Below are positions 15,675 through 31,578 of a stretch of 64,000 nucleotides of DNA, one piece after another (within the stretch, counting starts at the first letter, position 1; every line of letters begins with the position of its first letter). The notes beneath the pieces are model-generated. The model saw nothing but the letters and a program-made list of their open reading frames with translations, was not told where the DNA came from and made no database searches. The position numbers and the translations under genes are program-made. The DNA is from Luteolibacter yonseiensis (GTDB lineage Bacteria > Verrucomicrobiota > Verrucomicrobiia > Verrucomicrobiales > Akkermansiaceae): positions 372,001 to 436,000 of the forward strand of contig NZ_JAENIK010000012.1 of the NCBI RefSeq assembly GCF_016595465.1, read 5' to 3'.

Positions 15675-18600
15675 TCACGGCTTTTCATGGATTGTGGTAT
15701 TGAGTGACGCGTGGAGAGTGCCTTTTTTTAACTCACGTCCGCGCAACCAGAGGAAAATCACCGGGGTAACGATGAGGATATGGAGCAAGCTGGAAATCAT
15801 ACCACCGATGACCGGCGTGGCTAATGGCTTCATGATTTCCGCACCCTGGCGATGGCTCCACATGATCGGCATCAGGCTCGCAACGATGGTGGCGACGGTC
15901 ATGACCTTCGGCCGAAGGCGCAGCCGGGCACCGTCTTTCACTGCTTGCACGAGGTCCTCGTAGGTGAAAGCCGCGCCCTTCTCCGCGAGGCGGGCTTTCA
16001 CTGTTTCCTCCAGATAGACGACCATCACGACGCCCGTTTGCACGGCGGTTCCGAACAATGCGATGTAGCCGACCCAAACCGCGCCATTGAAATTGTAGCC
16101 TAGCAGTTTCTGCAAGAGCACGCCACCGCTCAGGGCGAAGGGCACGGCGAGCATCACGTGAGCCGCTTCCAAGGCACTGTGGTAGACGAAGTAGAGAAGG
16201 ACGAATATCACAATCAGCACCAGCGGGAAGACGAGCACCATGGTCTTGGTGAAACGACGCTGGTTCTCGAACTCGCCGGTCATTTTGTAAGTCATGCCTT
16301 CCAAGTCGATGGTCTTGAGCTTCCGCTCGATTTCCTCGACGAAGCCGCCAAGATCGCGGTCTTGCACGTTGGCTTGGACATAGGAGCGAAGCAGGCCGTT
16401 CTCAGAGGCGATCTCATTTGCCCCGATCTCGCGGGTGATCTTGGCGACCATCCCGAGCGGTATGTAGGGAACCGTCTCGCTCCCTCCGCCGGTAGCCATG
16501 GCCGGGGCTGCCGCAGCCCCACCGCCACCGCCCATGCCTCCCATACCACCGGCAGGTGCGGATGGCGCGGCGCTCATGCCGGGCTTCGCCGCGACAAGTA
16601 TCCGGCTGAGTTTCTCGATGTCATCGCGCTCGCTGCGCTGGACCCGGATCTGGATGGGGAAACGTTCCCGACCTTCGATGGTGGTGCTGACGTTTTTCCC
16701 ACCGATGGAAATCTCGACGGCGTCCAGCACGTCCTTCGCGCTGAGGCCATAGCGTGCCATTGCCTGGCGATCCACCTTGATGTTGAGGTAGGGCTTTCCC
16801 TGCACGCGTGAGGCGGAAACTCCGGTGGCCCCGTCGATGCCATTCACAAGTTTCTCGATCTCGAAGGCCTTGCGTTGGATCTTGTCGAGATTGTCGCCGT
16901 AGATTTTCACACCGACTTGGGCGCGAATTCCCGTATAGAGCATGAGGATGCGGTTCTCGATGGGCTGGAGAAAAGCTGGAACGTAACCCGGGACCTCCTT
17001 CATTTTTTCAGTTAGCTCCGCCTTGAGCTTCTCGACGGTCATGCCGTCGCGCCAGTCAGGGTTGCGCTTCACCCGGAATTTGCCGTTCGGGATGTATTCC
17101 GGTTTGAGCATGATGGTGGTTTCCAACATTTCGGTGGGAGCTGGATCGGTGGCGGTTTCGAAACGACCGAGCTTACCCGCTACCGAGGCCACTTCGGGAA
17201 CTTCGCTGATGACCTTGTCCTGCCACGACATGACACGCTGGATTTCCTTGAGACCGGTCTTGGGCATCATCACCGGCATGTAGAGCAGGCTGCCCTCGTT
17301 GAGCGGCGGCATGAATTCCTTGCCGAAGCCAGTGACCAGATCGGCGGTGCGCTCATAACCCCTGTCGTGGATTCGTTTCACCCATGACCTAGGAAGACCG
17401 AAGGCGGTAATCAGAGAAACGGTCAGAATCAGCAATGCAGTGGTAACGACTGTTACCCGGTGCTTGAGCGCCCAGTTCAGCGTGGGTTCATAGAGACGGA
17501 GAAGGAACTTCATCACGATGTTCTTGTCCTCGGAATGGAAGGGTCCGCGCACGAGCAGCGAACAGAGCACCGGCACCAGGGTAACGGCTAACAGCGTGGA
17601 ACCGATCATCGCGAAGGTCTTGGTGAAGGCCAACGGATGGAAGAGTTTTCCTTCCTGTCCGGTGAGTGCGAACACTGGAACAAATGCGAGGATGATGATC
17701 GCCATAGCAAAGAAAATGGGCCTACCCACTTGCTTGCAGGCAACCAACGTGGTTTCCCACGTTTCCCTACGGGTGAGGACGCTGCCTTTTTCGTCCTCCG
17801 CCTTTTCGCAATGGCGCAAAACGTTTTCGGTCACGACGATGGCCGCGTCCACCAGCACGCCAATGGCGATCGCGATGCCGGTGAGTGACATGATGTTGCT
17901 GGTGATGTCGAATTCCTTCATCAATAGGAACGAGATCAGAATGGAGATCGGCAATGGCAGCGTGACGATGAGGATGCTCCGGAAGTGCCACAGGAAAATG
18001 ATGTGGGCCAGGGTCACCAAAATGATTTCCTCCAACAACGCGTGCTTCAGGGTGCCGATGGTGTTGTCGATGAGTTCACTGCGATCATAGAACGACCTGA
18101 TGGTGATACCGGGCGGCAGGCTCGGAGCGATCTGCGCGATCTTTTCCTTCACCCGCTCGATGACTGCCTTGGCGTTCTCACCGGTGCGCATGACCACCGT
18201 ACCGCCGACCGCTTCGTGGCCGTTGATGTCGAGTGCGCCACGCCGGAAGTCACCGCCGATCTGGACGGTCGCGATGTCCTTCAGATAGATCGGGGTGCCT
18301 TCCATGGCTTTGACCGTTACTAGCTCCAGGTCTTCGGGACTGGTGATGAGGCCGATGCCACGCAACACGAATTCCGCGCCGTTTTCCTCGACAACCTTTC
18401 CGCCGACGTTGAGGTTGGCGTTCTGGACGGCGGTCATGACCTCCATCATCGTGACGTTGGCGGCTCGCATCTTGGTTGATGAAAGCTCGATCTGATACTG
18501 CTTCACAAAGCCGCCGATGCTGGCGACTTCCGCCACGCCCTGCACGCTGGCGAGCTGATAGCGGACGTACCAATCCTGCACTGAGCGGAGCTTCGCAAGA

Positions 18601-19070
18601 TCGTAGCCGCCGTTTTCCGCCTTCCCGGGATCGACGTGGAGATAATACTGATAGACCCAGCCGAGACCCGAGGCGTCGGGGCCGAGTTGTGGCGTCACGC
18701 CTTGCGGCATCGCGCTCTGGAGGAAGTTCAACCGCTCCAGCACGCGGGTTCGCGCGAAGTAGGTGTCCACTCCCTCTTCGAAAATGATCGTGCTCAGCGA
18801 GAACCCGAACATGGACGTGGCGCGGACTTCCTTCACTCCGCTGAGACCTTGCAAGCCGGTGGTAAGCGGATAGGTCACCTGGTCCTCCACTTCCTGCGGA
18901 CCGCGCCCTGCCCAGTCAGCATAGACCAAAACCTGGTTCTCCGTAAGGTCTGGAATGGCATCCACGGGTGTCAGGTAAACCGCCCGGACTCCCATCGCGA
19001 TGAGCAGCAAGGTCCCGCAGGCGACGAGGAACCTGTTTTTCAGGCTCCATTCGATGATTCGTTCAATCAT
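15675..19070 (-). CDS. cusA: CusA-type copper/silver RND transporter
   Basis: Inner-membrane pump of a Cu(I)/Ag(I) tripartite system, 1131 residues. I choose ATG 19070 (MIERIIEWSLKNRF) because it overlaps the cusB stop by four bases (ATGA). The N-terminal helix is followed by the Cu-class signature TPVDAIPDLTENQV, and helix 4 carries AIAIGVLVDAAIVVTEN (about residues 395-411), the HME4 pattern. A Gly/Ala/Met-rich insertion (GGMGGMGGGGGAAAAPAM) sits at about residues 825-860 in the second periplasmic loop, where most CusA proteins have no such run. It ends about 185 bases before the doubtful frame at 15490. Confidence 0.95.
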   Translation of the reverse strand: MIERIIEWSLKNRFLVACGTLLLIAMGVRAVYLTPVDAIPDLTENQVLVYADWAGRGPQEVEDQVTYPLTTGLQGLSGVKEVRATSMFGFSLSTIIFEEGVDTYFARTRVLERLNFLQSAMPQGVTPQLGPDASGLGWVYQYYLHVDPGKAENGGYDLAKLRSVQDWYVRYQLASVQGVAEVASIGGFVKQYQIELSSTKMRAANVTMMEVMTAVQNANLNVGGKVVEENGAEFVLRGIGLITSPEDLELVTVKAMEGTPIYLKDIATVQIGGDFRRGALDINGHEAVGGTVVMRTGENAKAVIERVKEKIAQIAPSLPPGITIRSFYDRSELIDNTIGTLKHALLEEIILVTLAHIIFLWHFRSILIVTLPLPISILISFLLMKEFDITSNIMSLTGIAIAIGVLVDAAIVVTENVLRHCEKAEDEKGSVLTRRETWETTLVACKQVGRPIFFAMAIIILAFVPVFALTGQEGKLFHPLAFTKTFAMIGSTLLAVTLVPVLCSLLVRGPFHSEDKNIVMKFLLRLYEPTLNWALKHRVTVVTTALLILTVSLITAFGLPRSWVKRIHDRGYERTADLVTGFGKEFMPPLNEGSLLYMPVMMPKTGLKEIQRVMSWQDKVISEVPEVASVAGKLGRFETATDPAPTEMLETTIMLKPEYIPNGKFRVKRNPDWRDGMTVEKLKAELTEKMKEVPGYVPAFLQPIENRILMLYTGIRAQVGVKIYGDNLDKIQRKAFEIEKLVNGIDGATGVSASRVQGKPYLNIKVDRQAMARYGLSAKDVLDAVEISIGGKNVSTTIEGRERFPIQIRVQRSERDDIEKLSRILVAAKPGMSAAPSAPAGGMGGMGGGGGAAAAPAMATGGGSETVPYIPLGMVAKITREIGANEIASENGLLRSYVQANVQDRDLGGFVEEIERKLKTIDLEGMTYKMTGEFENQRRFTKTMVLVFPLVLIVIFVLLYFVYHSALEAAHVMLAVPFALSGGVLLQKLLGYNFNGAVWVGYIALFGTAVQTGVVMVVYLEETVKARLAEKGAAFTYEDLVQAVKDGARLRLRPKVMTVATIVASLMPIMWSHRQGAEIMKPLATPVIGGMISSLLHILIVTPVIFLWLRGRELKKGTLHASLNTTIHEKP

Positions 19071-20758
19071 GGCTTGATCTCCTTTCCGCATTCAGACATC
19101 GCGGCGCCGAAGAACGGGTTGTTTCCCGGTCTGCCGTTGGTTTGAATCCAACGCCCCTTTTTAGGTGCTCCGGGGACTGCCCGATCAACCATCGGACATT
19201 CCCAAACTTGCAGTTCCGGGAAACCTGTCGCATGGCGCATTGGTTCCAGGACGGACGTTGCGGCCATGATGAATTTGTGGAACGCCGCGCGTGCCGGCTT
19301 CAGGTCCACAAAGCCGTGGAAGTGCCTCGCGTTGCTTAAAGCTGCGAGGCTTTCTTTCGTGCCGGATATATTGGCGAGAGATTCCGTGAGACTGGCGGTC
19401 GTGCTCATCGCGGGTTCGCTGGCCTTGTTGAAAGCGGCAAGATCGTCGGCGGAAAGGGCCGCCGCCATGGCATCGGCAACCTTGATGAAATTTTGAATAG
19501 CCTCTCGTTGAGGGGTGGTCAGGGCTTCGGTCATCACTACCGGCATCTGCTCGGTGGCGGGTGACATGAAGGCGCGGTTCATTTCCGCCTGGCCGTCGAT
19601 GAGGAGGTTGCCGTTGGTGACGACCTTGTCTCCAGCCTTCAATCCTGATAGAATTTCGACGAGCTTGTCGCCGCGGCGGCCGAGTTTTACGGGCGTCTGG
19701 GCGTAGGCACCTCCATTCTGGTCGATGTAAACCACCGCTTCCGGACCCGTCTGGATGATCGACGAACGCGGAACGGTTAGCACCGGAGGCGCATCCACCT
19801 TCACCGCTCCGTCGGCGTAGAGCTTGTGCAAAAGTTCGCGACGGCCATCGACCTTGGGATTGGGCAGCTCCACGCGGACTTTCGTGGACCGGGTGGATTC
19901 CTCGAAGTTCGGGTCGATGAAAGTGATCTTTCCCTCGAAAGATTTTCCCGGAAGCGACGGAGTCGTGACGGTGACGGTTTGGCCGATCTTGATCCACGGC
20001 AAATCCTGTTCGTAGGCGCGGAACATAAACCACATGGTTGAAAAATCAGCGAGTTCAAACAGCTTTTCACCGGCGGTCACGTACTGTCCTTCATAGACAC
20101 TCTGACCGACGACGGTGCCACCGATGGGGGAGAGAATCTGAGAATTCAGGGAGTCGGCGGATTTGTCAGCAACGGCCTCGATCTGTTCGCGAGTGAGGCC
20201 CATCTGGCGGAGACGAAGTGCGGTGTTTTTCTTCAAATCACCGGTGAGCTGCCGGTATTCCCGCTCGGCTTGAAGTAGATTTGGGCTGTAGTAATCGACA
20301 AGCGGTTGGCCGCCCTCCACTTCGGCTCCCATGTAATTCACATGCAACTTGTCCACGCGGCCATCGACATAGGCGGAAATGATGCGATGCCGCGTTGCGT
20401 CGTCGTCAACCATCCCTGCGACTTGAAGCGTGTGGACCAAGGGCTGGACCTTCGCCTCATCCGTTTGGACGTGGAGAACCTGGATTTGTGTCTGCGTGAG
20501 AGCCACGGTGTTCCCCCCGCCTGTGGCATCGAAGCCCTTCTCACCGGCATATACCGGCGTGAGTTCCATGCCGCAAATGGTGCAGCGCCCGGGTTTGTCG
20601 CTCTTGATCCACGGGTGCATGGCACTTTGATAGAAGATCGGCTCGCGCTCGGCGGTGCCGGACGATGTGGCTGGATTCGGTGACATGCGCCCCCTGAGCA
20701 GCCAAGTCCCGCCGATCGCCAGCGTCGCGGTGATTAGAATAGTGATGAATGTTTTCAT
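19067..20758 (-). CDS. cusB: CusB-type adaptor with N-terminal metal-binding domain and DUF3347 tail
   Basis: Periplasmic adaptor for CusA, 563 residues from ATG 20758 (MKTFITILITATLAIGGTWL). Residues 43-70 are a heavy-metal-binding (YHS-like) domain with AMHPWI and CTICGMEL (Cys59, Cys62). The lipoyl, hairpin, beta-barrel and membrane-proximal domains occupy about residues 90-400. From about 420 to the end there is a DUF3347-type helical domain closing with VWECPMVDRAVPGAPKKGRW and a final Cys-Gly, the same type as the stand-alone protein at 23392-23859. It follows the channel gene by 7 bases and is translationally coupled to cusA. Confidence 0.93.
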   Translation of the reverse strand: MKTFITILITATLAIGGTWLLRGRMSPNPATSSGTAEREPIFYQSAMHPWIKSDKPGRCTICGMELTPVYAGEKGFDATGGGNTVALTQTQIQVLHVQTDEAKVQPLVHTLQVAGMVDDDATRHRIISAYVDGRVDKLHVNYMGAEVEGGQPLVDYYSPNLLQAEREYRQLTGDLKKNTALRLRQMGLTREQIEAVADKSADSLNSQILSPIGGTVVGQSVYEGQYVTAGEKLFELADFSTMWFMFRAYEQDLPWIKIGQTVTVTTPSLPGKSFEGKITFIDPNFEESTRSTKVRVELPNPKVDGRRELLHKLYADGAVKVDAPPVLTVPRSSIIQTGPEAVVYIDQNGGAYAQTPVKLGRRGDKLVEILSGLKAGDKVVTNGNLLIDGQAEMNRAFMSPATEQMPVVMTEALTTPQREAIQNFIKVADAMAAALSADDLAAFNKASEPAMSTTASLTESLANISGTKESLAALSNARHFHGFVDLKPARAAFHKFIMAATSVLEPMRHATGFPELQVWECPMVDRAVPGAPKKGRWIQTNGRPGNNPFFGAAMSECGKEIKP

Positions 20759-20765
20759 GATCGTG

Positions 20766-22010
20766 TTAGCGGCGGTTGGGAACGAGCAAGTTGAGTTCTT
20801 CGATCGCCGCAAGTTGCATAGCGACGAAGCGGCGTTGTTCGAGACGGATGGAAAAGAGCATGCGGTTGGAGTCGAGCAGATCGGTGAGTGGGGACTTGGA
20901 GCTGATCCAGGAACCTTCGACCGCCTGCGTGGCAGAGAGGGCGCGTTGGTAGATCTCGCCTGAGTAGGCGCGTGCCTGGGCGGCGGCGTTGGCGGCATCG
21001 GTGGCGGCGGCGAGCACACCGGACGCCACTTCCAGCCGAGTCGCCTCGATGTCCCTGACTGCGGCCTTCTCGCGAAGCTGCGAGGCTTCGATCTTGGCGG
21101 TGTAAGAACCACGGTTGAAATACGGCAGACTCATTTTCAAGCCCACCGAGGCGCTGCGGAAATCGCCACCGGAGTAGAGATCGGTATCGACTGCCACGGA
21201 GAATTGAGGGAGACGTTCACGGTCTGCGATCCGTGTTTCGGCGTTTGCCGCAGACGCCATTTCCTTCATCGAAAGGACTTTGGGATTGACATAAGGAATG
21301 CGTGCTATCTCCGCGCTGGCGACCGGCACCGGTGGGGGCGTGGCGGAGAGCCGCAGGGCGGGCCATGGCGATTCCAGTGGCCGACCGAGTCTCAGGTTGA
21401 GGCTCCGGGCAACGCTCTCACGGGTGCGGCGGGCAGCTTCCAAAATCTGTTTTTCACGGGCGAGTTCGCTTTCCAGGCGTAGCGCGTCGATACTGGTAGC
21501 GTCGGGATTTTGAGCCATCTGACGCGCGTTCTGAGTCATCGAATTGAGCCATTGGATCTGGGTGGTCTGAAGCGAGATGGATTCATCCGCGAGGGCCAAC
21601 TCGATGGCATCCCTCGCAGCAGCCGCGCCGACTTCGAGCGACGAAGAGCGGGAATTTTCCAGCTCAGCCCTCCGCATGGCTTCAGCTTTTGCGAGGTTGG
21701 CGGCAAACATTCCGGGCTTCGGCAACGGCTGTTCGAAACCAATGCGGATGTCGCCATCATCCTGACGCATCATCTTTTCGGCGGCCATTAAGGAAAGCCC
21801 CACCATCGGATCCTCCCATAGGCGGACACCCCGGATGTCGCGGGCTGCAGCGGTGGCGCGGAGTTTTGCGGAATTTGCCGCAGGATGGTTTTGCGCGGCC
21901 TCTTTGCGCAGCGACGAGAGGAATACCTCGTTAACGAGTTTGGATTCCTGCGCTTGCAGCAGGCTCCCGGCCAGGTAGAGACCAGTTAAAATGGGAATCA
22001 TTGATTTCAT
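20766..22010 (-). CDS. cusC: TolC-like outer-membrane channel of the cus system
   Basis: 414 residues beginning MKSMIPILTGLYLAGSLLQAQ, a standard signal peptide without a lipobox. Two outer-membrane efflux repeats follow, with long Ala/Arg/Glu-rich helices (for example ESELAREKQILEAARRTRES in type). Its order before cusB and cusA on one strand with 7-base spacing fixes its role as the channel of the copper efflux complex. It starts about 100 bases after the Cys-rich head gene. Confidence 0.88.
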   Translation of the reverse strand: MKSMIPILTGLYLAGSLLQAQESKLVNEVFLSSLRKEAAQNHPAANSAKLRATAAARDIRGVRLWEDPMVGLSLMAAEKMMRQDDGDIRIGFEQPLPKPGMFAANLAKAEAMRRAELENSRSSSLEVGAAAARDAIELALADESISLQTTQIQWLNSMTQNARQMAQNPDATSIDALRLESELAREKQILEAARRTRESVARSLNLRLGRPLESPWPALRLSATPPPVPVASAEIARIPYVNPKVLSMKEMASAANAETRIADRERLPQFSVAVDTDLYSGGDFRSASVGLKMSLPYFNRGSYTAKIEASQLREKAAVRDIEATRLEVASGVLAAATDAANAAAQARAYSGEIYQRALSATQAVEGSWISSKSPLTDLLDSNRMLFSIRLEQRRFVAMQLAAIEELNLLVPNRR

Positions 22011-22111: not shown

Positions 22112-22477
22112 TCAGATGACAAATCGGCAGAAGGCCACGGAAAGCGGCACTCCTTCAAACGCACAACGGGTGTCGGTTTGAGAAGCAGCGAATACGACCA
22201 ATGTTTCCGACTGAGGATTAGTTGGCGAGTCCAAGCTCGCCGGCTCCGATACTTTTGAAACGAGCCATTTCAGATCAACTCCCGCAGGAATCAGCGGACT
22301 TGGCTTTTGATCCGGGTCGCTTTCCTTCGCACAAGGGCAAGATTGGAGACCGTCACAGCAACTCATGAACTGCCCGTTGTCGCAGGATTTCACTGGTTCC
22401 GCAGCCGGGCCAAGCTGGACTTGGGAAAGCTGGATAACCAGTCCCAGGAACAACGCGATGATTGACTTGATGGCCAT
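22112..22477 (-). CDS. Small exported Cys-rich protein heading the cus operon
   Basis: I set the start at ATG 22477 (MAIKSIIALFLGLVIQ), giving a signal peptide and 121 residues; the longer frame to 22675 would run through the promoter-like site at 22531-22560 and into the next gene. The mature N-terminus has KSCDNGQFMSCCDGLQSCPC, six Cys within 19 residues. The rest is Pro/Ser-rich and ends VPLSVAFCRFVI. No family recognised. It is the first gene after the putative copper-regulon promoter and so is likely made with the pump. Confidence 0.7.
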   Translation of the reverse strand: MAIKSIIALFLGLVIQLSQVQLGPAAEPVKSCDNGQFMSCCDGLQSCPCAKESDPDQKPSPLIPAGVDLKWLVSKVSEPASLDSPTNPQSETLVVFAASQTDTRCAFEGVPLSVAFCRFVI

Positions 22478-22530: not shown

Positions 22531-22560
22531 GTAATACTCCGGCACCGGCAAAAACCCTTG
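22531..22560 (-). promoter_or_regulatory. Putative ECF-sigma promoter of the cus operon (site 1)
   Basis: On the minus strand CAAGGGTTT (22560-22552) is followed after exactly 15 bases by TATTAC (22536-22531). It lies about 54 bases before the ATG of the head gene. The same 9-mer and spacing recur at 23910-23939, 26865-26894 and 28956-28985. Confidence 0.65.
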
Positions 22561-22610
22561 GAATAATTCGAAAAATTTCAACTGCCGGAAACCAGACTCC
22601 GGACAGCTGG

Positions 22611-23231
22611 CTAGAATTTTTTGAGGAAGTCGGCTCCATAAACGAGGCTGGCACCGAAGTGCGCAGCGGCGGCAACGAGCCCGGCGCAAATCGTCAACGC
22701 AAAAGCCAACGCCTTCGGACCCAGCCGCTTTCTCGCGAGGGCTACCACGACAGATACAACTGCCGTGCCAGTTCCCAGCCATCGGTGCCAAAGAAGGATT
22801 TGTTCGTCGTCTCCGAAATACACGGAATCGTAAGCGTACATCCAGCCCAACGCCGCGGCGGCAATGGCACCGAAGGTTCCGAACCAAAGAAGGACGGCGA
22901 CAGTGGCACTGCCACGGCCGGTGACGAGTGCATACCAGTGCACCACCATCGCCGCGAGGAGGAAGGCTATCGGGAAATGAAGCACCATTAGATGGTATTT
23001 CCCGACGTATTTGATGCTCCGATGGAGCACTGGTTCAGCGGTCACTGCCGAAGGCTCCTCCTCCAACTTATCCGTTGCAAGCGATTCCCCTGCACCGAAT
23101 GCGGAGTGGCGCTGCGCAACCTCCACCTCCCCCCCTTGGCCAGCAGGTGCTCGGAATGCAAATATCAGCGCTATCAGAAACATCAGACTCAATGCCAACA
23201 GACGAGTGGGAAAATGATGGGTGGAAATCAT
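22611..23231 (-). CDS. DUF2231-type inner-membrane protein
   Basis: 206 residues from ATG 23231 (MISTHHFPTRLLALSLMFLI). There are five predicted membrane segments: one N-terminal, then four after residue 80 starting with YVGKYHLMVLHFPIAFLLAA, the His-Phe-Pro-Ile signature of DUF2231-type proteins, and a conserved WHRWLGTGTA segment. Such proteins often accompany cytochrome or copper genes; the conserved His could bind heme or metal. The function here is unknown. It lies between the DUF3347 gene and the cus operon on the same strand. Confidence 0.75.
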   Translation of the reverse strand: MISTHHFPTRLLALSLMFLIALIFAFRAPAGQGGEVEVAQRHSAFGAGESLATDKLEEEPSAVTAEPVLHRSIKYVGKYHLMVLHFPIAFLLAAMVVHWYALVTGRGSATVAVLLWFGTFGAIAAAALGWMYAYDSVYFGDDEQILLWHRWLGTGTAVVSVVVALARKRLGPKALAFALTICAGLVAAAAHFGASLVYGADFLKKF

Positions 23232-23334
23232 GGAAACCGGGGATAGGGCCGAATGAACAAGGGCGGATTTCACGTTGGAGTCGCGCCCGCCGAATGAACC
23301 GGAGTTTTGCTTGGACGGACTACTCCTGAAAGGT

Positions 23335-23353
23335 GGTCGGGTTTACCCCGACC
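23335..23353 (-). terminator. Short hairpin after the DUF3347 gene
   Basis: GGTCGGG and CCCGACC pair around a 5-base loop, 39 bases past the stop at 23392. There is no T-run, so it may be a weak terminator. Confidence 0.35.
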
Positions 23354-23391
23354 GCTGATCATACCTTGCGGATTGTCTTTCGGTGATGTGG

Positions 23392-23859
23392 CTATTTCGA
23401 CATCACCATTTTTCCACAATGAGGCATCTTGGCACCAAGGTAGGGATTCTGGACTTCATCAGCCGACTTCTGAAGCCAGTTGGCTCCTTTGTCGCCGAAG
23501 GCCATCGGGCAGTTCATTTCGTGCATCATCTTTTTCTCCTTCGCAACAGGGATGGCGGCATCGCTCAGCGCTTTGAAATGAGTGCGAGCTTCCTCGATGT
23601 TCTTGCTGTCGACGATGGATTGGCAATGTTTGGCCATCGCGCTGTCCTTGTCGTGCTTCACCATGCCGTCAGCCGCCTTCTTCGCCGCTGCCAGATCATC
23701 TTTATAAAGCGCGGTCGATACGGCCGCATAGCCTTCCAGCATGTGATCCGCGTGACCTTCCTTGGTGGTTCCTTCGTGTTGGGGTTCCGCTGCTGATAGC
23801 GTCGGGTTCGCGAGAACGAATCCAAGCAGACTGAATGCAAGTGCTAATGTCGGTTTCAT
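23392..23859 (-). CDS. Stand-alone DUF3347 periplasmic protein
   Basis: 155 residues with a signal peptide (MKPTLALAFSLLGFVLANPTLSAA). A helical domain follows, with HADHMLEGYAAVSTALYKDD and the DUF3347 closing block MMHEMNCPMAFGDKGANWLQ, then a C-terminal MPHCGKMVMSK. Met, His and Cys residues suggest copper binding; DUF3347 proteins are regularly found with copper efflux genes and as tails of CusB. The start is 51 bases after a copy of the putative ECF promoter, so it appears to be expressed by itself as part of the copper response. Confidence 0.85.
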   Translation of the reverse strand: MKPTLALAFSLLGFVLANPTLSAAEPQHEGTTKEGHADHMLEGYAAVSTALYKDDLAAAKKAADGMVKHDKDSAMAKHCQSIVDSKNIEEARTHFKALSDAAIPVAKEKKMMHEMNCPMAFGDKGANWLQKSADEVQNPYLGAKMPHCGKMVMSK

Positions 23860-23909
23860 TTTGATAATGGTTGTTGGTTTTTCCCGCCTCTTTGGATGGG
23901 CGGTTTCCC

Positions 23910-23939
23910 GTAATAACCCGCCCTGCTCGGAAACCCTTG
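23910..23939 (-). promoter_or_regulatory. Putative ECF-sigma promoter of the DUF3347 gene (site 2)
   Basis: CAAGGGTTT (23939-23931) and TATTAC (23915-23910) on the minus strand with 15 bases between them, preceded by AATTTT. The ATG is at 23859. The site lies in the gap between the copper ATPase and this gene. Confidence 0.65.
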
Positions 23940-23972
23940 AAAATTATATCTCAGTCTCCACAATCGCCCGCA

Positions 23973-26333
23973 TCACTCCCGGATATGCCTCAGACGAAGT
24001 GCGTTCGCGATTACCGAAACGCTGCTAAGGGCCATCGCCGCTCCTGCTACCATCGGATTGAGCAGCCAGCCCGTCAGCGGGTAGAGCAGTCCGGCGGCAA
24101 TCGGTATCCCGAGCGCGTTATAGACGAACGCAAAGAAGAGATTCTGCCGGATGTTGCGCATCACCTCGCGACTGAGCTCCAAGGCACGACCGATTCCACG
24201 GAGATCGCCTTTGACCAAGGTTAATCCGGCACTGCGAATGGCGACATCGGTCCCGGTGCCCATGGCGATACCCACATCCGCCTCAGCGAGAGCGGGGGCA
24301 TCATTGATACCGTCGCCCGCCATCGCCACCACAGCTCCTCCGGCACGCAGCTCGCGAGCAATGCGCTGTTTGTCCGCTGGCGTGAGTTCCGCGCGGATGT
24401 CATCGATCCCCAGCTCGCGGCCGACGGCTTCGGCGGTCTGACGATTGTCGCCGGTCAGCATCACCAGGCGCAGGCCCATCGCATGCAGGGCCGCCACGGC
24501 TTCGGGGGTCGAGGCCTTGATCGGATCCGCCACCGCAATAAAGCCGCCAATCACCTGGTCTTCCGCGATCCAGATGACGGTGTGGGCTTTTTTTTGAAGT
24601 GCCTCGGCGGAGGAAACGAGGTCCTGCGGGATGCCGATGCCTTCCGTCTCCAACCACGCACGTTTTCCGACCCGGACGACTTTGCCTTCGATTCGTCCCA
24701 TGATGCCCGCGCCGGTGACTGACTCGAAGAATTCAACGCGCGAAAGCGGAAGCCCTTTTTCTTTGGCCCGGTTGACCACCGCTTGCGCGAGAGGGTGCTC
24801 GCTGAGGTGCTCCAGCGAAGCGGCAAGTATCAAGATATGATCCTCCTTGTCCGCCTCCACGGGGACAATCTGCTTCGCCACCGGCCTTCCTTCGGTGAGC
24901 GTTCCGGTCTTGTCGGTGATGAGATGCGTCACCTTCTCGGCGCACTCCAGTGCGGCGGCGTCGCGAACAAGAACGCCCATTAGCGCGCCTTTGCCCACGC
25001 CGACCATGATAGACATCGGCGTCGCCAGCCCCAAAGCACAAGGGCAGGCAATGATCAAAACCGCCACACTGTTAGCGATGGCGAAGGCAAGCCGCGGCTC
25101 GGGGCCCAAAAACATCCAGCCCGCGAATGTGAGGATCGTAATCATAACCACGGCGGGCACGAACCATCCCGCAACCTGATCGGCCAGCCTTTGAATGGGC
25201 GCACGGCTGCGCTGGGCGTCCGCGACCATTTGGACGATCTGGGACAGCAAGGTTTCCGAACCCACTTTCTCAGCACGCATTAGGAACGCACCGGTCTGAT
25301 TGATCGTCGCTCCCACCACGCGGTCTTCCATCTTTTTGAAAACGGGCAACGGTTCGCCGGTAATCATCGACTCATCCACCATGCTCTCGCCTTCCGTGAG
25401 CACTCCATCGACCGGGATTTTCTCGCCAGGACGGACGCGGAGCACGTCGCCGATCCGGACGTCATCCAGCGGGACATCTTCCTCATTTCCGTCTGTCACC
25501 CGGCGGGCCGTCTTGGCGGCCAGGCCTAGCAGGGCTTGCACCGCTTGGCCGGTCTTGCTGCGTGCCTTGGCCTCCAACCATTGGCCTAGGATAACCAGTG
25601 CGGTGATCACGGCGGCAGCCTCGAAATAGAGCGGCACACGCCCGCCATGGCGCAGCGAATGCGGAAAGAGTCCGGGCACAAAAACAGCGACGGAGCTGTA
25701 AAGCCATGCGGTACCGACCCCGAGTGCGATCAGAGTGAACATGTTGAGGCTCTGGTGCTGGAGCGAACGCCATGCCTTGGCGAAAATAAAGCCGCCGGGG
25801 CCGAAGACTACGAGCGTTGCCAACACGAGTTGAACCCACCCGAAAACCGGTTCCGGCATCCATCGGCTCATTTGCACCGCTGGCAGCATTTCACCCATCG
25901 CCATAAGGAAAACTGGAAAGGCAAGAGCCGCGCTCAGCCAGAGCTTTCGCTGCAAGGAGACCACCTCATGATTCTCATCGGCCGGCGACACCGTCTTCGG
26001 TTCGAGCGCCATCCCACACTTCGGGCAATTCCCCGGGTGGTCCTGTTCGATTTCCGGGTGCATCGGACACGTGTAGATCGTCTGGGATGCAGGGGCCTTC
26101 CAAGTCGGATTCCGCTCCAGCGCCATGCCGCATTTCGGGCAGTCGCCGGGGCTGTCTGACTCCACGCCCGGACACATTGGGCAGAAATACTTCGCCCCCA
26201 CAGGCGGCTTCACATCGCCGTGATGATGATCGTGACAGCAAGAGGAAGCTGGCTTTTCGGCAGCGGGTGGTTCGGTACAGCAGCTTTTCTTCTTCTCTGG
26301 ATCAGGCTTGGGGTCATGGCAACAATCATTCAT
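23973..26333 (-). CDS. copA: Copper-exporting P-type ATPase with two N-terminal metal-binding domains
   Basis: Inner-membrane Cu(I)/Ag(I) pump, 786 residues from ATG 26333 ([10 protein letters not shown]). The N-terminus has three CC pairs and an HDHHHGD run, then two YHS-like heavy-metal-binding domains at about residues 49-73 and 87-111, each with CPMxP and CPKCGMALE. There is no classical HMA domain. The membrane part carries [11 protein letters not shown] near residue 430, DKTGT near 474 and [10 protein letters not shown] later, all intact, in the copper-type context. The gene overlaps the 3' end of the MerR-family gene by 8 bases, so the two are cotranscribed. A start at 26372 is possible but would lengthen the overlap. 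Confidence 0.94.
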
Positions 26334-26778
26334 GGCAGTGTGTGTTATCTTTGGTTTCAAAATTTTCTCCATCGAGGAATTCCACGATGGGGCATCCTTG
26401 CAGCGCGCCCTTCCCGTCGCACTGCGTCACAAGACTTCCGAGGGCACGTTCCATCGACCGCAAGTCACGGATTTTTTGACGGATCAGGGTGAGTCTTGCC
26501 TCGGCGAAGGTCCTCACCTTCTGCCGCGAGGTCTTGATGCTTCCGGTGAGTTGCAGGAGCTGTTTAATGTCGTTCAAGCTGAATCCCAGCTCTTGGGACC
26601 GCCGGATGAACTGCAATCTCGTAAGATCCTCGTCCTTATAAATCCGGTATCCCGAGTCGTTGCGACGGGGAGTCTGCAAAAGACCTTTCTGCTCATAGAA
26701 TCGCAACGTCTCCGGTCCTACCCCTGCCTTTTTGGCGAGTGCGGCGCGAGTCCAGGTCGAAGCAACTTCTCTTTTCAT
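26326..26778 (-). CDS. MerR-family metal-responsive regulator, CueR-like
   Basis: Transcription activator of about 150 residues. The start is ATG 26778 ([20 protein letters not shown]); the longer GTG start at 26793 lies within the operator. The winged-helix region contains [15 protein letters not shown] and SGYRIY. The metal loop is [11 protein letters not shown] with two Cys, and the dimer helix has KTSRQKV at the position where CueR has Ser and ZntR has Cys, which favours a monovalent metal. It ends THCHE. It directly precedes and overlaps copA and should activate both genes from the upstream operator. Confidence 0.9.
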
Positions 26779-26784
26779 GGGATA

Positions 26785-26816
26785 CCCATACACCTTGTAG
26801 CAAGATACAGGGTCAA
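26785..26816 (-). promoter_or_regulatory. MerR-type operator/promoter of merR-copA
   Basis: The dyad ACCTTGTA (26792-26799) and TACAGGGT (26806-26813), 7 of 8 matching, lies between a -35 TTGACC (26816-26811) and a -10 TATGGG (26790-26785) on the minus strand. The spacer is 20 bases, the over-long spacing typical of MerR-activated promoters. The start site would fall at about the ATG 26778, so the transcript may be leaderless. Confidence 0.75.
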
Positions 26817-26864
26817 TCGATTTTTTTAAGGAAATTCACGACGGCCGAAAATAATCCATTTCTT

Positions 26865-26894
26865 CAAGGGTTTTCGCCCAAGTTGGTGTGATAC
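26865..26894 (+). promoter_or_regulatory. Putative ECF-sigma promoter of the sensor/sigma operon (site 3)
   Basis: CAAGGGTTT (26865-26873), 15 bases, then TGATAC (26889-26894). It lies 51 bases before the GTG of the first gene, the same distance as at site 2. It would make the sigma operon autoregulated. Confidence 0.65.
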
Positions 26895-26945
26895 GAAGTA
26901 GAGCGCGGTGAAAAGCGCTCATTTAAAAGACAACCAAACAAAGTC

Positions 26946-27269
26946 GTGAAAACCAAAGCATTCAGCATTCTCCTCGCCGTCCTGACCTTGGCATCAATGA
27001 TCCCCGTCGCTTCCGCACAGCGCGCAAACGGGAATTTGGCTCCGCAGCGGATCGACAAGGGCGCATCCACCCAAGTGGCGGAATCGGCAACCCGGGCACT
27101 TCCTAAGACGTGCGTCAGCCAGGCCTGCTGCATCACCAAGTCCCAAGTTCAAACTGCGGAAGGTCGCTCAACCAGGATCACCTCCACGAAAGTAAAGGCT
27201 TGCAACACCGCCTGCCAAATCGCCAGCAATGATCAGCGGGCCGCCTGTGGCAAAGGAAAACGGGCCTGA
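26946..27269 (+). CDS. Small exported Cys protein, first gene of the sigma-factor operon
   Basis: 107 residues from GTG 26946. It has a signal peptide (TKAFSILLAVLTLASMIPVASA). The mature part has CVSQACC, then CNTACQ and a C-terminal CGKGKRA, six Cys in the last 55 residues with many Lys, Thr and Gln. No family recognised. It lies 38 bases before the anti-sigma gene and just after a putative copper promoter, so a role in periplasmic metal binding or sensing is likely but unproven. Confidence 0.75.
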   Translation: MKTKAFSILLAVLTLASMIPVASAQRANGNLAPQRIDKGASTQVAESATRALPKTCVSQACCITKSQVQTAEGRSTRITSTKVKACNTACQIASNDQRAACGKGKRA

Positions 27270-27307
27270 TATTATGGCCGGGATTCCGGCATTTTAACTA
27301 ACGGACC

Positions 27308-27610
27308 ATGAAAAATATCGATTTCGATGACCTGTTACGCTCGGCTGGGGAAGACTTTCCCTTGCCGCCATCATTCCATGCGGATGTGTGGAACCGGATC
27401 GAATCCGCGGAAGCGATTCGCTCAAAACTCGAAACTCCGTGGCATCACAATATCATCAGCATGATCGCAAGACCATGGGCAGCCGCTTCCGGCTTCGCCG
27501 CGATGGTGGCCTTGGGATTATGGCTCGGCGCGCTGAGCATTCCCGATAACTTCCGCACGGAAACGGCTTACGCTCGTTCCATCAGTCCGTTCGCTCAATC
27601 CCATCGATGA
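27308..27610 (+). CDS. CnrY-like membrane anti-sigma factor
   Basis: 100 residues with one membrane segment (about residues 56-76, WAAASGFAAMVALGLWLGAL). The N-terminal 50 residues are cytoplasmic and helical (FDDLLRSAGEDFPLPPSFHA), as expected of a short sigma-binding region like that of CnrY; the periplasmic tail is about 24 residues. There is no detectable classical zinc anti-sigma motif. Identification rests on gene order (before a CnrX-like sensor and an ECF sigma) and topology. Its stop overlaps the next start (ATGA at 27607-27610). Confidence 0.7.
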   Translation: MKNIDFDDLLRSAGEDFPLPPSFHADVWNRIESAEAIRSKLETPWHHNIISMIARPWAAASGFAAMVALGLWLGALSIPDNFRTETAYARSISPFAQSHR

Positions 27611-28080
27611 AAACCAAGGCTCTATATGTTCTCATGGCGATTCTGGCTGCCGGAGTCCTGGCATTTTGCCTAATGAGGAATCACCGGATGCCCAGCCGTG
27701 GGGATGCACTGCTCGATAAAATGCCCGAACTCGGGTGGGTCCGCAGCGAGCTGAAGCTCACGGACGAACAGTTCAAAAAAGTGGCCCAGTTGCATGTCGA
27801 TTACCGCCCGGAATGCGTTGAAATGTGCCACCGGATCTCGCAAGCACATGAGCAAATCGAAGAACTCGCAAAGACCGGGCGTGGCATGACCCCCGAACTG
27901 GATGCCGCCCTCCGGGAGCATGCCGCGATTCACCTTGAGTGCCAGCAGACGATGCTGGGTCACATCTATCGGACGGCCGCGTTGATGGATCCTCGCCAAT
28001 CCGAAAGGTATCTCGAAAAGGTGCTGCCTTACGCTCTCGACTTCACCCACAGCGAGACCGGGAATCTTCACGAGAGGTAG
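27607..28080 (+). CDS. CnrX-like periplasmic metal sensor
   Basis: 157 residues with an N-terminal anchor (LYVLMAILAAGVLAFCLM) and an all-helical periplasmic domain of the CnrX/ZraP heavy-metal-sensor type: LTDEQFKKVAQLHVDYRP, HEQIEEL, then EHAAIHLECQQTMLGHIYR and MDPRQSERY. CnrX binds Ni/Co with His, Glu and Met. Here the same helices carry Cys70, Cys74, His75, His81, His105, His109, Cys112, Met116 and His119, a softer set that would suit copper. It is translationally coupled to the anti-sigma gene and lies 12 bases before the sigma gene. Confidence 0.82.
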   Translation: MKTKALYVLMAILAAGVLAFCLMRNHRMPSRGDALLDKMPELGWVRSELKLTDEQFKKVAQLHVDYRPECVEMCHRISQAHEQIEELAKTGRGMTPELDAALREHAAIHLECQQTMLGHIYRTAALMDPRQSERYLEKVLPYALDFTHSETGNLHER

Positions 28081-28092
28081 AAATGATCCCCG

Positions 28093-28662
28093 ATGGAAAT
28101 TCCTGACTGCGATTTGATGGCAAGCCTTGCCGGGGGCGATGATCTGGCGCTGGACCGGCTGATGGAGCGTTGGGCCAGCCGCGTTGCAGCCTTTCTTTAC
28201 CGTATGACCGGGCAACGCGAAATCGCTGCGGACCTTGCTCAGGAAACCTTCGTGAAGCTTTATCAGGCAAGAGACCGCTATCGGGCGGACGGAAATTTCT
28301 CCACCTATCTTTTCGCGATCGCCTCAAACCTCGCCAAGAACCACGCAAGATGGAGAAAGCGACATCCCACTGTCTCGCTCGATGCGTCTTCGGATGAAGT
28401 CAACGGTCCCGCCCTCCATTTGGTCGATCCCCGGGCTGGCCCCGGGGAGACGGCGCAAAAAATGGAGACAATGACGGCGGTGTCTAAAGCTTTCCAAGCT
28501 CTTCCTCCGGACCTGCGCGAAGCCATGTCGCTTTTCATCTATGAAGGTATGGGCTACGCCGAGATCGGAGTGCTAATGGGATGCACCGGCAAGGCGGTGG
28601 AAACGCGTATCTATCGGGCGCGACAAATCCTGAAAGAACAACTCAAGGAAATATGCCCATGA
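28093..28662 (+). CDS. ECF sigma factor, CnrH-like
   Basis: 189-residue RNA polymerase sigma factor with only regions 2 and 4. Region 2 spans about residues 15-95 (DLAQETFVKLYQARDRYRAD, then FSTYLFAIASNLAKNHARW). A linker of about 40 residues follows, and region 4 lies at about 130-185 (LPPDLREAMSLFIYEGMGYA, and a helix-turn-helix ending ETRIYRARQILKEQL). It is third in a Y-X-H-type operon, so it is probably held by the 100-residue membrane protein until the periplasmic sensor binds metal. The four CAAGGGTTT sites nearby are its best candidate targets. Confidence 0.93.
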   Translation: MEIPDCDLMASLAGGDDLALDRLMERWASRVAAFLYRMTGQREIAADLAQETFVKLYQARDRYRADGNFSTYLFAIASNLAKNHARWRKRHPTVSLDASSDEVNGPALHLVDPRAGPGETAQKMETMTAVSKAFQALPPDLREAMSLFIYEGMGYAEIGVLMGCTGKAVETRIYRARQILKEQLKEICP

Positions 28663-28955
28663 TGTTACCGCAGATTCATTGGATCGAATGGAGTGCCATT
28701 CGCCTGCTGCGGTCATTTCCCCAGCAAGAGGCGAAAGGGCTTGGGTGCTGGACTGGAAGCAACACCGGCTTGCCATTCCGCCGGCGATAGCTGCGGCGCC
28801 ACTCTATCTATCGACTTTGAGTCTTTCCGGATTGATCGCTGATGCGGGAGAAGAAATCCGATACAACGCGCTGGGTGGCGTGACCGGCCCGACGGGTGAG
28901 GAAAATGAACAGCACAGCAATTTATCAGTGACTCGGAAAATTCTTGGGAAATTTT
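28663..28955. other. Stretch after the sigma gene without a supported gene
   Basis: Open frames exist on both strands (for example 28679-28984 plus, 28713-29081 minus), but neither has a plausible start context, composition or motif. I see no hairpin with a T-run. Confidence 0.45.
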
Positions 28956-28985
28956 CAAGGGTTTGCACCAGCTTTGAACATTAAC
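28956..28985 (+). promoter_or_regulatory. Putative ECF-sigma promoter before the multicopper oxidase unit (site 4)
   Basis: AATTTT then CAAGGGTTT (28956-28964), 15 bases, then ATTAAC (28980-28985). The -10-like hexamer is the weakest of the four and the next start codon is 160 bases away, leaving a long leader. Confidence 0.45.
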
Positions 28986-29145
28986 CAGCAACAGTGGGTA
29001 ATTCCCCCGGCAAACGGGCATGAAGTGAAATTCTGCTGCCGCCCCTGCGTCGCTAAGCCCGAGGTAGATCCTTCGAAACATCTCGCCAAACTGTGATATA
29101 CCTGATAGGCCAAAACTTCTCTATAACCGCCAACACCCCATTAAA

Positions 29146-29379: not shown

Positions 29380-31578
29380 ATGAAAACCCTGCTTTACTCT
29401 ATCCTCCTGCTGGCCGGTCTCCCAGCACTCGCAAAAACGGTCCGATACGATCTGAACCTTTCGAAAATCGAGGTGAATCTGGGTAAAAAAACCAAGCCGG
29501 CCATGGCGATCAACGGCAGCATTCCCGGCCCCGTCCTCCGCTTCGTGGAAGGTGACTACGCGATCATCAATGTCCGAAACGATCTCCGCGAGGAAACCTC
29601 CATCCATTGGCACGGTCTTCTTGTTCCAAACGACCAGGACGGAGTTCCACACGTAAACATGGCCCCGATCGAGCCAGGGGAGACGCGTGAATACCGCTTT
29701 CCGCTCCGCCAGTCCGGCACCTACTGGTATCACTCTCACAGCGTTCTTCAGGAGCAGCTCGGCATCTACGGCGGCATCGTGATTTCGCCGGAAGGCGGTG
29801 AAAGGGTTTCATCCAATCGTGATTTCGTCGCCGTTCTCTCCGACTGGACCGATGAAACGCCGTTCGATGCACTGACCCAGCTTCGGGCGGGACGCGAATG
29901 GCAGCAGATCAAAAAAGGTACAGCCCAAAGCGTCAGTGGAGCGATCAAGGACGGTTCCTTAGGCGAATATTTCAAACGCTCCATGACGCGGATGCCTCCC
30001 ATGGATCTCTCGGACATTGCTTACGACCGCTTCCTCATCAATGGCAGCCCGTCCGCAGCCGTATCGGCACAGCCTGGGGAGACGGTCCGCCTTCGGCTCA
30101 TCAATGCTTCGGCCATGACCTACTACTTCATTGAATTCGCGGGCGGCCCAGTACGAATCATCGGTGCGGACGGTATGGATGTCCGGCCGGTCAACCAAGG
30201 ACGGTTCTTGATGGCCATCGCCGAAACCTACGACCTCCAGGTGAAAGTGCCAAAAGGCGGAGCCTACGAACTTCGAGCAACCTCCCAAGACGGCACCGGC
30301 TCCAGCAGCATATTCATCGGCACCGGCGAACAGGTCAAAGCGCCCGACGTGCCTCGCGCCAATCCTTACAAAGGACACGCCATGATGGGCGGCATGGAAG
30401 GGATGTCCGGCATGGACCACAGCACCATGAAAATGCCGATGAGTGGCAAGATGGATGGTGACGCGATGGAGTCCATGGACCATTCCATGCACGGCGGCGA
30501 GGCTGCGCCGGCGATGGAAGGAATGGATCATTCCAAAATGAAGCCCGCTGCCTCCACCGACCACTCACAAATCGGGCATGCCATGCCGGGCCACTCCATG
30601 GATTCGGACGGACGCCCGGGTAGCCCTTATGAAAGCCTCAAAGCTATCAGCTCCACCGCATTGTCACCTGGACGCCCCCTGCGCTCCTACACATTCCGAC
30701 TCCAGGGTGACATGATCCGCTACGTCTGGACCATTAATGGCAGGACCTTCACCGAAGCGGACATGGTAAATATCCGCAAAGGCGAGCGCGTTCGCTTCAA
30801 CTTCATCAACGAAACCATGATGCACCATCCCATGCATCTTCACGGCCACTTTTTCCGGCTGCTCACCGCGGCAGGTATTTTTTCTCCGCTCAAGCACACG
30901 GTCGATGTCCCCCCGATGTCGAGCAGAACCATCGAATTCGCGGCCGACGAGCCGGGGGACTGGCTGATGCACTGCCACGTACTCTATCACGCAGAGGTCG
31001 GCATGGGCCGGATCGTCCACTACGAAGACGCACCGCCTAATCCAAACCTGATGGTCGGGCACGGGGCATGGGATATGACGAAGATGCACGACCCTCTTTT
31101 TTTCTTCGGTGAAGTCGCCGCACTCTCCAACATGACCGAGGGCTTTGTCGCATTCGAAAACAACCGGAACGGTCTGAGCGCCGCTTGGGAAGCGGGTTGG
31201 GGCGAGGTGGACGAGACCGGATACGAGATCAATCTCGCCTACGACCGTTATCTCAACAGCTTCACCAGTGTCTTCGCGGGAGCAAATTTGACGGACGGTG
31301 AATCCCAAGACCGGGGCGTACTCGGCGTCCGCTATCTGCTGCCTTTCCTGATTCGCTCGCAGGCCTGGGTGGATACCGATGGTGAGTTCCGCGTCGGCCT
31401 TTCCCAAAGCATCGCCCTCACCGCCAGACTCTCTATTTACGGTGGGGCCGAGTACGACACGCTCACCGATTGGGAGACCGTCGCCGGCCTCGAATACGTG
31501 GTGGACAAGCGGTTTTCGCTGATCGGCCAGTGGCATAGCGAATACGGCTGGGGTGGCGGCGTCGGCTTCCGATTCTAG
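29380..31578 (+). CDS. Multicopper oxidase fused to a CopB-like outer-membrane barrel
   Basis: 732 residues. The signal is MKTLLYSILLLAGLPALA. Residues about 20-555 are a CopA/PcoA-type multicopper oxidase with all copper motifs: HWHG at 76-79, HSHS at 118-121, HHPMHLHGH at 482-490 and HCHVLYHAEVGM at 531-542. Residues about 330-410 are a Met/His-rich insert (repeats like GMDHS and MSGKMDGD). From about 556 (GHGAWDMTKMHDP) to the final Phe the sequence alternates like a small outer-membrane barrel and resembles CopB/PcoB (YEINLAYDRYLNSF, then GVRYLLPFLIRSQAW, ending GGGVGFRF). PcoA and PcoB are normally separate proteins. The role is oxidation of periplasmic Cu(I), here perhaps tethered to the outer membrane. 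Confidence 0.92.
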   Translation: MKTLLYSILLLAGLPALAKTVRYDLNLSKIEVNLGKKTKPAMAINGSIPGPVLRFVEGDYAIINVRNDLREETSIHWHGLLVPNDQDGVPHVNMAPIEPGETREYRFPLRQSGTYWYHSHSVLQEQLGIYGGIVISPEGGERVSSNRDFVAVLSDWTDETPFDALTQLRAGREWQQIKKGTAQSVSGAIKDGSLGEYFKRSMTRMPPMDLSDIAYDRFLINGSPSAAVSAQPGETVRLRLINASAMTYYFIEFAGGPVRIIGADGMDVRPVNQGRFLMAIAETYDLQVKVPKGGAYELRATSQDGTGSSSIFIGTGEQVKAPDVPRANPYKGHAMMGGMEGMSGMDHSTMKMPMSGKMDGDAMESMDHSMHGGEAAPAMEGMDHSKMKPAASTDHSQIGHAMPGHSMDSDGRPGSPYESLKAISSTALSPGRPLRSYTFRLQGDMIRYVWTINGRTFTEADMVNIRKGERVRFNFINETMMHHPMHLHGHFFRLLTAAGIFSPLKHTVDVPPMSSRTIEFAADEPGDWLMHCHVLYHAEVGMGRIVHYEDAPPNPNLMVGHGAWDMTKMHDPLFFFGEVAALSNMTEGFVAFENNRNGLSAAWEAGWGEVDETGYEINLAYDRYLNSFTSVFAGANLTDGESQDRGVLGVRYLLPFLIRSQAWVDTDGEFRVGLSQSIALTARLSIYGGAEYDTLTDWETVAGLEYVVDKRFSLIGQWHSEYGWGGGVGFRF

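Follow-up and report, generated by a model that had tools for sequence, protein, structure and literature searches.

A candidate ECF sigma factor regulon for copper defence in Luteolibacter yonseiensis and its counterparts in relatives of the class

Within a 64,000-nucleotide stretch of the Luteolibacter yonseiensis genome (RefSeq assembly GCF_016595465.1, contig NZ_JAENIK010000012.1, positions 372,001 to 436,000; hereafter the window, with positions counted from its first base), four copies of a two-part, promoter-like motif lie in a cluster of metal-handling genes. Judging from the sequence, these four sites are very probably the on-switches through which the neighbouring extracytoplasmic function (ECF) sigma factor would activate copper-defence genes. 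Switches of this kind are also present in many relatives within the class. We consider it likely that the mechanism holds as a whole, with the ECF sigma factor encoded at 28093-28662, an anti-sigma factor, a CnrX-type copper sensor and the four promoters as its parts. The motif, its spacing, its uniqueness in the genome, its conservation together with the operon in many relatives, the homology of the sensor to CnrX and the conservation of the sensor cysteines are all read directly from sequence.

In the mechanism that we propose, the four sites would serve as the -35/-10 promoters of this sigma factor, which would be held at the membrane by an anti-sigma factor of 100 amino acids and released when the CnrX-type periplasmic sensor binds metal. 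The metal would most likely be Cu(I), or Ag(I), bound through Cys70, Cys74 and Cys112 with Met116, His63 and His119 nearby. Freed sigma factor would then transcribe its own operon along with the genes for CusCBA efflux, a DUF3347 protein, small cysteine-rich secreted proteins and probably a multicopper oxidase, and the cytoplasmic arm (CopA) would stand under a separate MerR-type regulator. Contact between the sigma factor and the promoters, the function of the anti-sigma factor, the release mechanism and copper as the inducer are the steps that we infer.

Four sites in the window and their specificity in the genome

The earlier note on this DNA had reported four copies of the 9-mer CAAGGGTTT, each followed after exactly 15 bases by an A/T-rich hexamer. 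We found the positions and the spacing exactly as it gave them (Table 1), and a scan of the window revealed no further copy of the 9-mer, for which the expected number in the window is 0.39; none of 100 shuffles gave four copies. At sites 1, 2 and 3 the start codon follows the hexamer by 53, 50 and 51 nucleotides, respectively. The -10 form GTATTA is present at site 1, and sites 2-4 carry variants of it. By its placement, site 1 would drive the small gene at 22112-22477 and presumably also the cus genes behind it, site 2 is very probably the promoter of the DUF3347 gene, and site 3 would drive the sensor-sigma operon, which amounts to autoregulation.

The 9-mer alone was rejected as evidence because it occurs 56 times in the 5.73-Mb genome (13 contigs), compared with 38 times for the reversed 9-mer. 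Two of its copies are arranged as an inverted repeat flanked by A/T runs (G000:C11:547366-547387), which is probably a terminator hairpin and illustrates why the 9-mer alone misleads. The two-part form behaves differently from the 9-mer. None of the 52 copies outside the window has a hexamer of the form [TA][ATG][TA][TA]AC at +15; three of them come within two mismatches of TATTAC, TTTTAC or ATTAAC, and none of these three has the GG that the motif family carries ahead of the hexamer. The pattern with TTTTAC, at up to two mismatches, gave 11 matches in the genome, namely the four window sites and seven scattered ones, and its reversed control gave seven. When the family consensus CAAGGGTTT-N10-CGGNGTTTTAC, built from 14 sites of which four are the window's own, was searched with up to three mismatches, only sites 1, 2 and 3 were recovered (reversed control, one); site 4 is not among the matches to this strict form. 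A second family pattern, YRAGGGTTT-N11-GGNNWTTWAC, matched with up to one mismatch only at sites 1, 2 and 4 (reversed control, one). Every genome match to these two GG-containing patterns lies inside the 22.5-29 kb cluster. The earlier note had proposed counting the motif in the whole genome and in related genomes, and held that a copper regulon would be refuted by numerous matches of equal quality scattered irrespective of copper genes. The count indicates that the two-part form is specific and recurs at the sensor loci of relatives, and within this genome the GG-containing patterns match the cluster only.

The motif at sensor loci of relatives

Of 384 genomes of the class, 118 contain at least one match to the sensor encoded at 27607-28080 (147 matches, summed). 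Nine genomes of the same genus are in this set, and the source genome is the only one of them with a match. A contig search with the sensor provided one named relative, a metagenome-assembled genome of Akkermansiaceae (L162), and a search of the PLSDB plasmids gave no match. The first 41 relative loci comprise up to 19 kb around 40 sensor matches, plus L162; the first 20 are the best-scoring matches, including both copies from one genome, and the next 20 mostly follow the score order, with some matches passed over and four (G139, G119, G325 and G141) drawn from lower down. A later set of 40 loci is more distant and likewise a selection; it repeats genomes already used (e.g., G291) and includes two genomes twice. 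G291 has four sensor matches (contigs C16, C23, C30 and C20) in separate neighbourhoods.

Scanning the first loci for the -35 word with up to one mismatch and a [TA][ATG][TA][TA]AC hexamer yielded 11 relative sites. The training set has 14 sites, including the four of the window; L102 was dropped as a near copy of L100. Bases that had not been selected for are conserved in these 14 sites: G+20 in all 14, G+21 in 13 and a C after the hexamer in 11, and the consensus is approximately TTYAAGGGTTT-N11-GG-N2-TTTTAC-C. With a weight matrix at a score of at least 18, we observed 41 matches in the 41 relative loci and the window, 14 of which are the training sites, compared with none for the reversed control (one at score 17). 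At loci outside the training set, 14 of 31 have a site scoring at least 18 within 3 kb of the sensor, and the control has none. One match in the window, at position 6731 (score 18.5), falls within a long reading frame and seems to be a chance hit.

A relaxed form, RAGGGDT-N12-GGNGT, is present no more than 1.3 kb upstream of the sensor gene and on its strand in 27 of the 41 loci (control, 0), and over both strands of these loci it has 56 matches compared with one in the control. This form was shaped on the first 41 loci, and the 40 further loci are the sole independent test of it. There it was found 13 times on the sensor strand and five times on the other strand, at 15 distinct loci; the reversed pattern gave no match on either strand, and Markov-resampled sequences gave a mean of 0.04 loci (maximum 2) on the sensor strand. 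Relatives that share the sensor-sigma operon often have this promoter before the sigma operon and before metal-handling genes, and at 28 of 29 sites, with starts located by hand, the motif lies 3-83 nucleotides before a start codon. In L097, L089, L090 and L115, motif pairs on opposite strands lie within about 60 bases of each other and apparently serve two units from one gap. In L084, L085, L117, L118 and L120, a G replaces the T after AGGG (GAGGGGT...), indicating that the promoter code drifts between clades.

In 76 genomes, YRAGGGTTT-N11-GGNNWTTWAC with up to one mismatch has 49 matches, 41 of them in the 38 sensor-bearing genomes and eight in the 38 sensor-less ones; the same genus contributes eight sensor-less genomes, none of which has a match. 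Judged from their positions, 25 of the 49 are at sensor loci, where all ten of the zero-mismatch matches sit. Eight of the other 24 precede metal genes: two copA-like ATPase genes at 53 nucleotides, a DUF3347 gene at 8 nucleotides, a cusA-like pump gene at 7 nucleotides in a genome without a detected sensor, genes for two YHS-like secreted proteins, one for a small secreted protein rich in Cys and His, and a Cys/His-rich gene with an outer-membrane-type gene and cusB/cusA-like genes behind it.

The sensor-sigma operon and its likeness to cnrYXH

From 27308 to 28662, the operon has the order short membrane protein, sensor, sigma factor, which is that of cnrY-cnrX-cnrH on plasmid pMOL28 of Cupriavidus metallidurans and fits autoregulation. 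In both systems a second promoter lies right behind the sigma gene. Unlike cnrYXH, the window operon is headed by an extra gene for a secreted cysteine-rich protein, and its predicted targets are copper genes. Proteins similar to the product of this first gene are encoded at the same position in L082 and L083. Small secreted proteins encoded by the first gene of the operon (L082:8603, L083:8867, L098:3169, L108:10154, L099:8902 and L093:10254) keep their position and vary strongly in sequence; the three that were scanned, from L082, L098 and L108, have no Pfam match.

The sigma factor is 29% identical to CnrH over 140 amino acids (blastp E-value 1.5e-11), with a common helix KAVExRIxRAR. In an alignment of 34 sigma sequences, K167, E170, Y174 and A176 are invariant; comparing the alignment columns with the -35 variants (T, A or G after AGGG) revealed no notable column in the recognition helix, and this comparison confounds variant with clade. 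The alignments, in which near copies and doubtful reads were omitted, hold 37 of 42 sensors, 34 of 41 sigma factors and 18 of 19 anti-sigma factors, the window's own included. At L114:9989-10532, the sigma gene matches as two overlapping pieces in different frames and may be broken or misassembled. The 100-amino-acid protein is presumed to be the anti-sigma factor from its position and its predicted topology, and its segment PLPxxFxxxVWxRIE is conserved in the 18 aligned sequences of the family; it cannot be aligned to CnrY.

The likeness extends to the promoters. The region upstream of cnrY reads CAAGGGGGAGTCCTTCGCGCAGCCGTATAAG and that upstream of cnrC reads CGAGGGGAAGCATCGACCTGGTCCGTATAGAG, so that CAAGGGG...CCGTATA at cnrY and CGAGGGG...CCGTATA at cnrC share with the window family an AGGG in the -35 element and a GTATA in the -10 element, and the spacing between the two elements is one nucleotide shorter in the window. 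By primer extension, according to an excerpt of PMC9045368, transcription starts 24 and 25 nucleotides ahead of cnrY and cnrC. Counted from these starts, AGGG occupies -33 to -30 and GTATA -11 to -7 in both regions. The common RAGGGG / CCGTATA pair lies at L246:8250-8290 and L246:9620-9660 on pMOL28 and resembles the Verrucomicrobiae motif. The proposal of the earlier note, an ECF-type -35/-10 pair with autoregulation, thus gains support from the genome specificity, from the sensor loci of relatives and from the cnrYXH-type operon; that the sigma factor reads the motif is what we infer from these.

The sensor is homologous to CnrX and NccX. Its profile has NccX (E-value 2e-7) and CnrX (4e-6) as the best matches in the PDB, and direct blastp against CnrX gives 25% identity over 73 amino acids (E-value 0.002). 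A model built from a two-sequence alignment (mean pLDDT, the predicted local distance difference test, 70) superimposes on CnrX entries with Z 7.9-9.1 and root-mean-square deviation 2.1-3.5 over 103-105 residues, and on NccX with Z 9.9 and a deviation of 5.0 over 130 residues. The metal ligands of CnrX include His42, His46, Glu63 and His119. Met123 is a further CnrX ligand, as stated in an excerpt of PMC7689651. At these positions the window sensor has Leu42, Arg46, His63, His119 and Thr123, such that His119 is the only ligand kept; in the alignment to pMOL28 CnrX, Tyr135 is also kept, His63 replaces Glu63, and His42, His46 and Met123 are lost. The Ni/Co ligands are replaced by three cysteines. 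Among 36 other aligned sensors, Cys70 and Cys112 are present in all 36 and Cys74 in 35, followed by His63 (33), His119 (31) and Met116 (30). By a helix-spacing argument, residues 70 and 112 should meet one heptad along on antiparallel helices, since each is seven positions from 63 or 119, if those two share a metal in CnrX. The three near-invariant cysteines suggest a candidate Cu(I)/Ag(I) site.

Neighbouring genes, alternatives and meaning

The genes around the four sites are listed in Table 1. The earlier note had every copy of the motif pointing at a copper-related unit, the multicopper oxidase in the case of site 4. Site 4 is not immediately upstream of the multicopper oxidase gene; a truncated YHS-like gene and a 46-codon reading frame intervene. 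The frame after site 4 lacks a usual start codon and ends with GHEVKFCCRPCVAKPEVDPSKHLAKL and a stop, and its translation aligns with the C terminus of a YHS-like secreted protein (tblastn E-value 1e-6 in L162 and 5e-6 in L081), intact relatives of which stand behind the same motif in L081, L162, L101, L082 and L112. Site 4 is therefore the candidate promoter of a truncated gene. The sigma gene of L081 is followed by the motif, the YHS-like gene and the multicopper oxidase gene in that order, which makes it plausible that transcription from site 4 reaches the oxidase at 29380 by read-through. One part of the picture changes, in that copA, at the centre of the cluster, carries no ECF motif and shares a MerR-type promoter with merR. 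This promoter is of a type separate from the ECF motif, as in MerR/CueR control of copA, and the ECF promoter at 26865 lies next to it in divergent orientation. The cluster looks split, with CopA export under a cytoplasmic MerR sensor and periplasmic detoxification under the ECF system. The DUF2231-like gene possibly belongs to the DUF3347 unit.

Table 1. Candidate promoters and genes of the cluster (window positions)
Feature	Position	Strand	Remarks
CusA-type resistance-nodulation-division (RND) pump	15675..19070	-	267-amino-acid part: CusA E 2e-57, ZneA E 1e-25
CusB-like adaptor with HMBD	19067..20749	-	
CusC-like outer membrane efflux protein	20766..22010	-	
Small secreted Cys-rich protein, first after site 1	22112..22477	-	start at 22477; no Pfam match
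Candidate promoter site 1	22531..22560	-	-35 CAAGGGTTT 22552-22560; -10 TATTAC 22531-22536; CGG upstream of -10
DUF2231-like membrane protein	22611..23273	-	below cut-off
DUF3347 secreted protein	23392..23859	-	
Candidate promoter site 2	23910..23939	-	-35 23931-23939; -10 TATTAC 23910-23915; precedes DUF3347 gene
Copper P-type ATPase (CopA) with HMBDs	23973..26372	-	not behind ECF motif
MerR-family regulator (MerR/ZntR/CueR relatives)	26326..26793	-	
MerR-type promoter before merR-copA	26785..26816	-	TTGACC-N20-TATGGG; CCTTGTA/TACAGGG dyad
Candidate promoter site 3	26865..26894	+	-35 26865-26873; -10 TGATAC 26889-26894; precedes sensor-sigma operon
Small secreted Cys-rich protein, 107 amino acids, first sigma-operon gene	26946..27269	+	no Pfam match
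Predicted anti-sigma factor, 100 amino acids	27308..27610	+	PLPxxFxxxVWxRIE N-terminal, one hydrophobic segment, short tail; CnrY position
Periplasmic sensor, CnrX/NccX family, 157 amino acids	27607..28080	+	PF13801 Metal_resist; Cys70, Cys74, Cys112
ECF sigma factor, 189 amino acids	28093..28662	+	regions 2 and 4; recognition helix KAVETRIYRAR
Candidate promoter site 4	28956..28985	+	-35 28956-28964; -10 ATTAAC 28980-28985; before truncated YHS-like gene
Relic of YHS-like secreted gene	29016..29096	+	last 26 codons and stop left (GHEVKFCCRPC...AKL, stop), front missing
Lipoprotein-like open reading frame, 46 amino acids	29146..29286	+	Met/His-containing tail
Multicopper oxidase, CopA-type	29380..31578	+	TIGR01480 435 bits, below cut-off 479

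Several observations weigh against a copper-responsive ECF system with a promoter code shared across the class. The reversed one-mismatch pattern gives 41 matches in the 76 genomes (18 in sensor-bearing and 23 in sensor-less ones), compared with 49 for the pattern itself, and 16 of those 49 have no metal gene behind them; among these 16, the match on contig C188 of G172 leaves 179 bases to the contig end, and that in L197 falls within a sensor locus, inside its DUF3347 gene. The exact pattern without GG, AAGGGTTT-N15-WTTWAC, has 34 sites (30 genomes) in the 384 class genomes, compared with about 58 for its reverse, and was rejected as a class-wide test because it has fewer sites than the control; nine of its 34 sites are at sensor loci. 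RAGGGDT-N12-GGNGT is missing from 25 of the 40 further loci and from the region just upstream of the sensor in 14 of the first 41. Three of these 14 (L082, L098 and L110) have a scoring weight-matrix site upstream of the sensor, four have one at another place in the locus (L100, L102, L101 and L111), and L087, L088, L092, L096, L107, L116 and L119 have no site scoring at least 17.4, with L107 showing one of 16.8 about 8 kb away. The weight matrix gives the cnr sites no score, and the gene directly behind site 4 is broken. As for the proteins, neither a profile search nor blastp detected similarity of the 100-amino-acid protein to CnrY, and tblastn found a relative of it in only 18 of the 41 loci. 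The sigma profile is closer to RpoE/SigH/SigW-type factors than to CnrH (E-value 1e-24). The sensor model scores against CnrX at Z values that helical proteins can reach through arrangement alone, and the top match is a designed helical bundle (Z 10.0); the fold match would by itself be weak evidence.

Of the other explanations, the one with the best claim keeps the same sigma factor and promoters and changes the signal to another soft metal, a broad mixture of metals, or oxidation of the three cysteines to disulfides. The nearest solved relatives of the sensor, CnrX and NccX, belong to Ni/Co/Cd systems (an excerpt of PMC7689651), disulfides are possible between periplasmic cysteines, and the RND pumps of some relative loci are only distantly CusA-like. 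However, the CnrX residues His42, His46 and Met123 are not kept in the window sensor, and the regulated units of the window are of copper type: the pump, in the part searched, is closer to CusA than to ZneA, and the oxidase is CopA-type, below the family cut-off. We therefore consider a non-copper signal unlikely and take copper as the probable one. Two-part motifs of fixed spacing are also known for activators, and a MerR regulator is encoded in the cluster; it is nevertheless very improbable that the motif serves as operator for a conventional transcription factor, given that it is non-palindromic with fixed spacing, that it lies so close before start codons and is similar to the mapped regions upstream of cnrY and cnrC, and that MerR has a dyad of its own. 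Chance repetition of a short word, to which the 56 genome copies of the 9-mer might point, is scarcely credible, as it is contradicted by the relatives, by the specificity of the bipartite form in the genome, by the unselected conserved bases and by the reversed controls at sensor loci.

ECF systems of the cnrYXH type are already known, as are ECF factors that answer to copper. In Myxococcus xanthus, cuoB, copB and copA encode a multicopper oxidase and ATPases. CorE is a copper-dependent ECF sigma factor of Myxococcus xanthus that controls cuoB, copB and perhaps copA (an excerpt of PMC3107203), and it binds copper itself through a Cys-rich C-terminal extension (an excerpt of PMC10141476). The window sigma factor lacks such an extension, region 4 reaching residue 178 with no Cys-rich stretch after it, and is accompanied by a sensor and a presumed anti-sigma factor instead. 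In Acinetobacter baumannii, SigAb-AabA is a copper-stress ECF system whose anti-sigma factor has been compared with CnrY; according to an excerpt of PMC12153292, SigAb differs in its promoter (GTCAAC / CGTT), in its direct regulon (sigAb, relA and a small RNA) and in having the anti-sigma genes downstream of the sigma gene. In the open-licence literature searched, we met neither a cnrYXH-like copper system of Verrucomicrobia nor the combination of a cnrYXH-type operon with a cysteine sensor, copper genes as targets and the promoter code described here. The 2021 re-classification of ECF factors may contain this group.

For the class as a whole, the evidence leans modestly towards a CnrX-type sensor that has been rebuilt from a Ni/Co site to a thiolate Cu(I)/Ag(I) site (Cys70, Cys74 and Cys112) and that, with a promoter code of approximately RAGGGDTT-N11-GGNGTNTTA, would govern a main periplasmic copper-stress regulon of Verrucomicrobiae. 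The core members of this regulon would be small secreted YHS-like, HMBD, DUF3347 and Cys-rich proteins. Such a code would make promoters readable in a little-studied bacterial class, and it would offer a route to listing copper-defence genes, including those for unnamed small secreted proteins, from sequence alone. The sensor would provide a testable case of metal specificity changed within one fold, from Ni/Co in CnrX to the Cu(I) predicted here.

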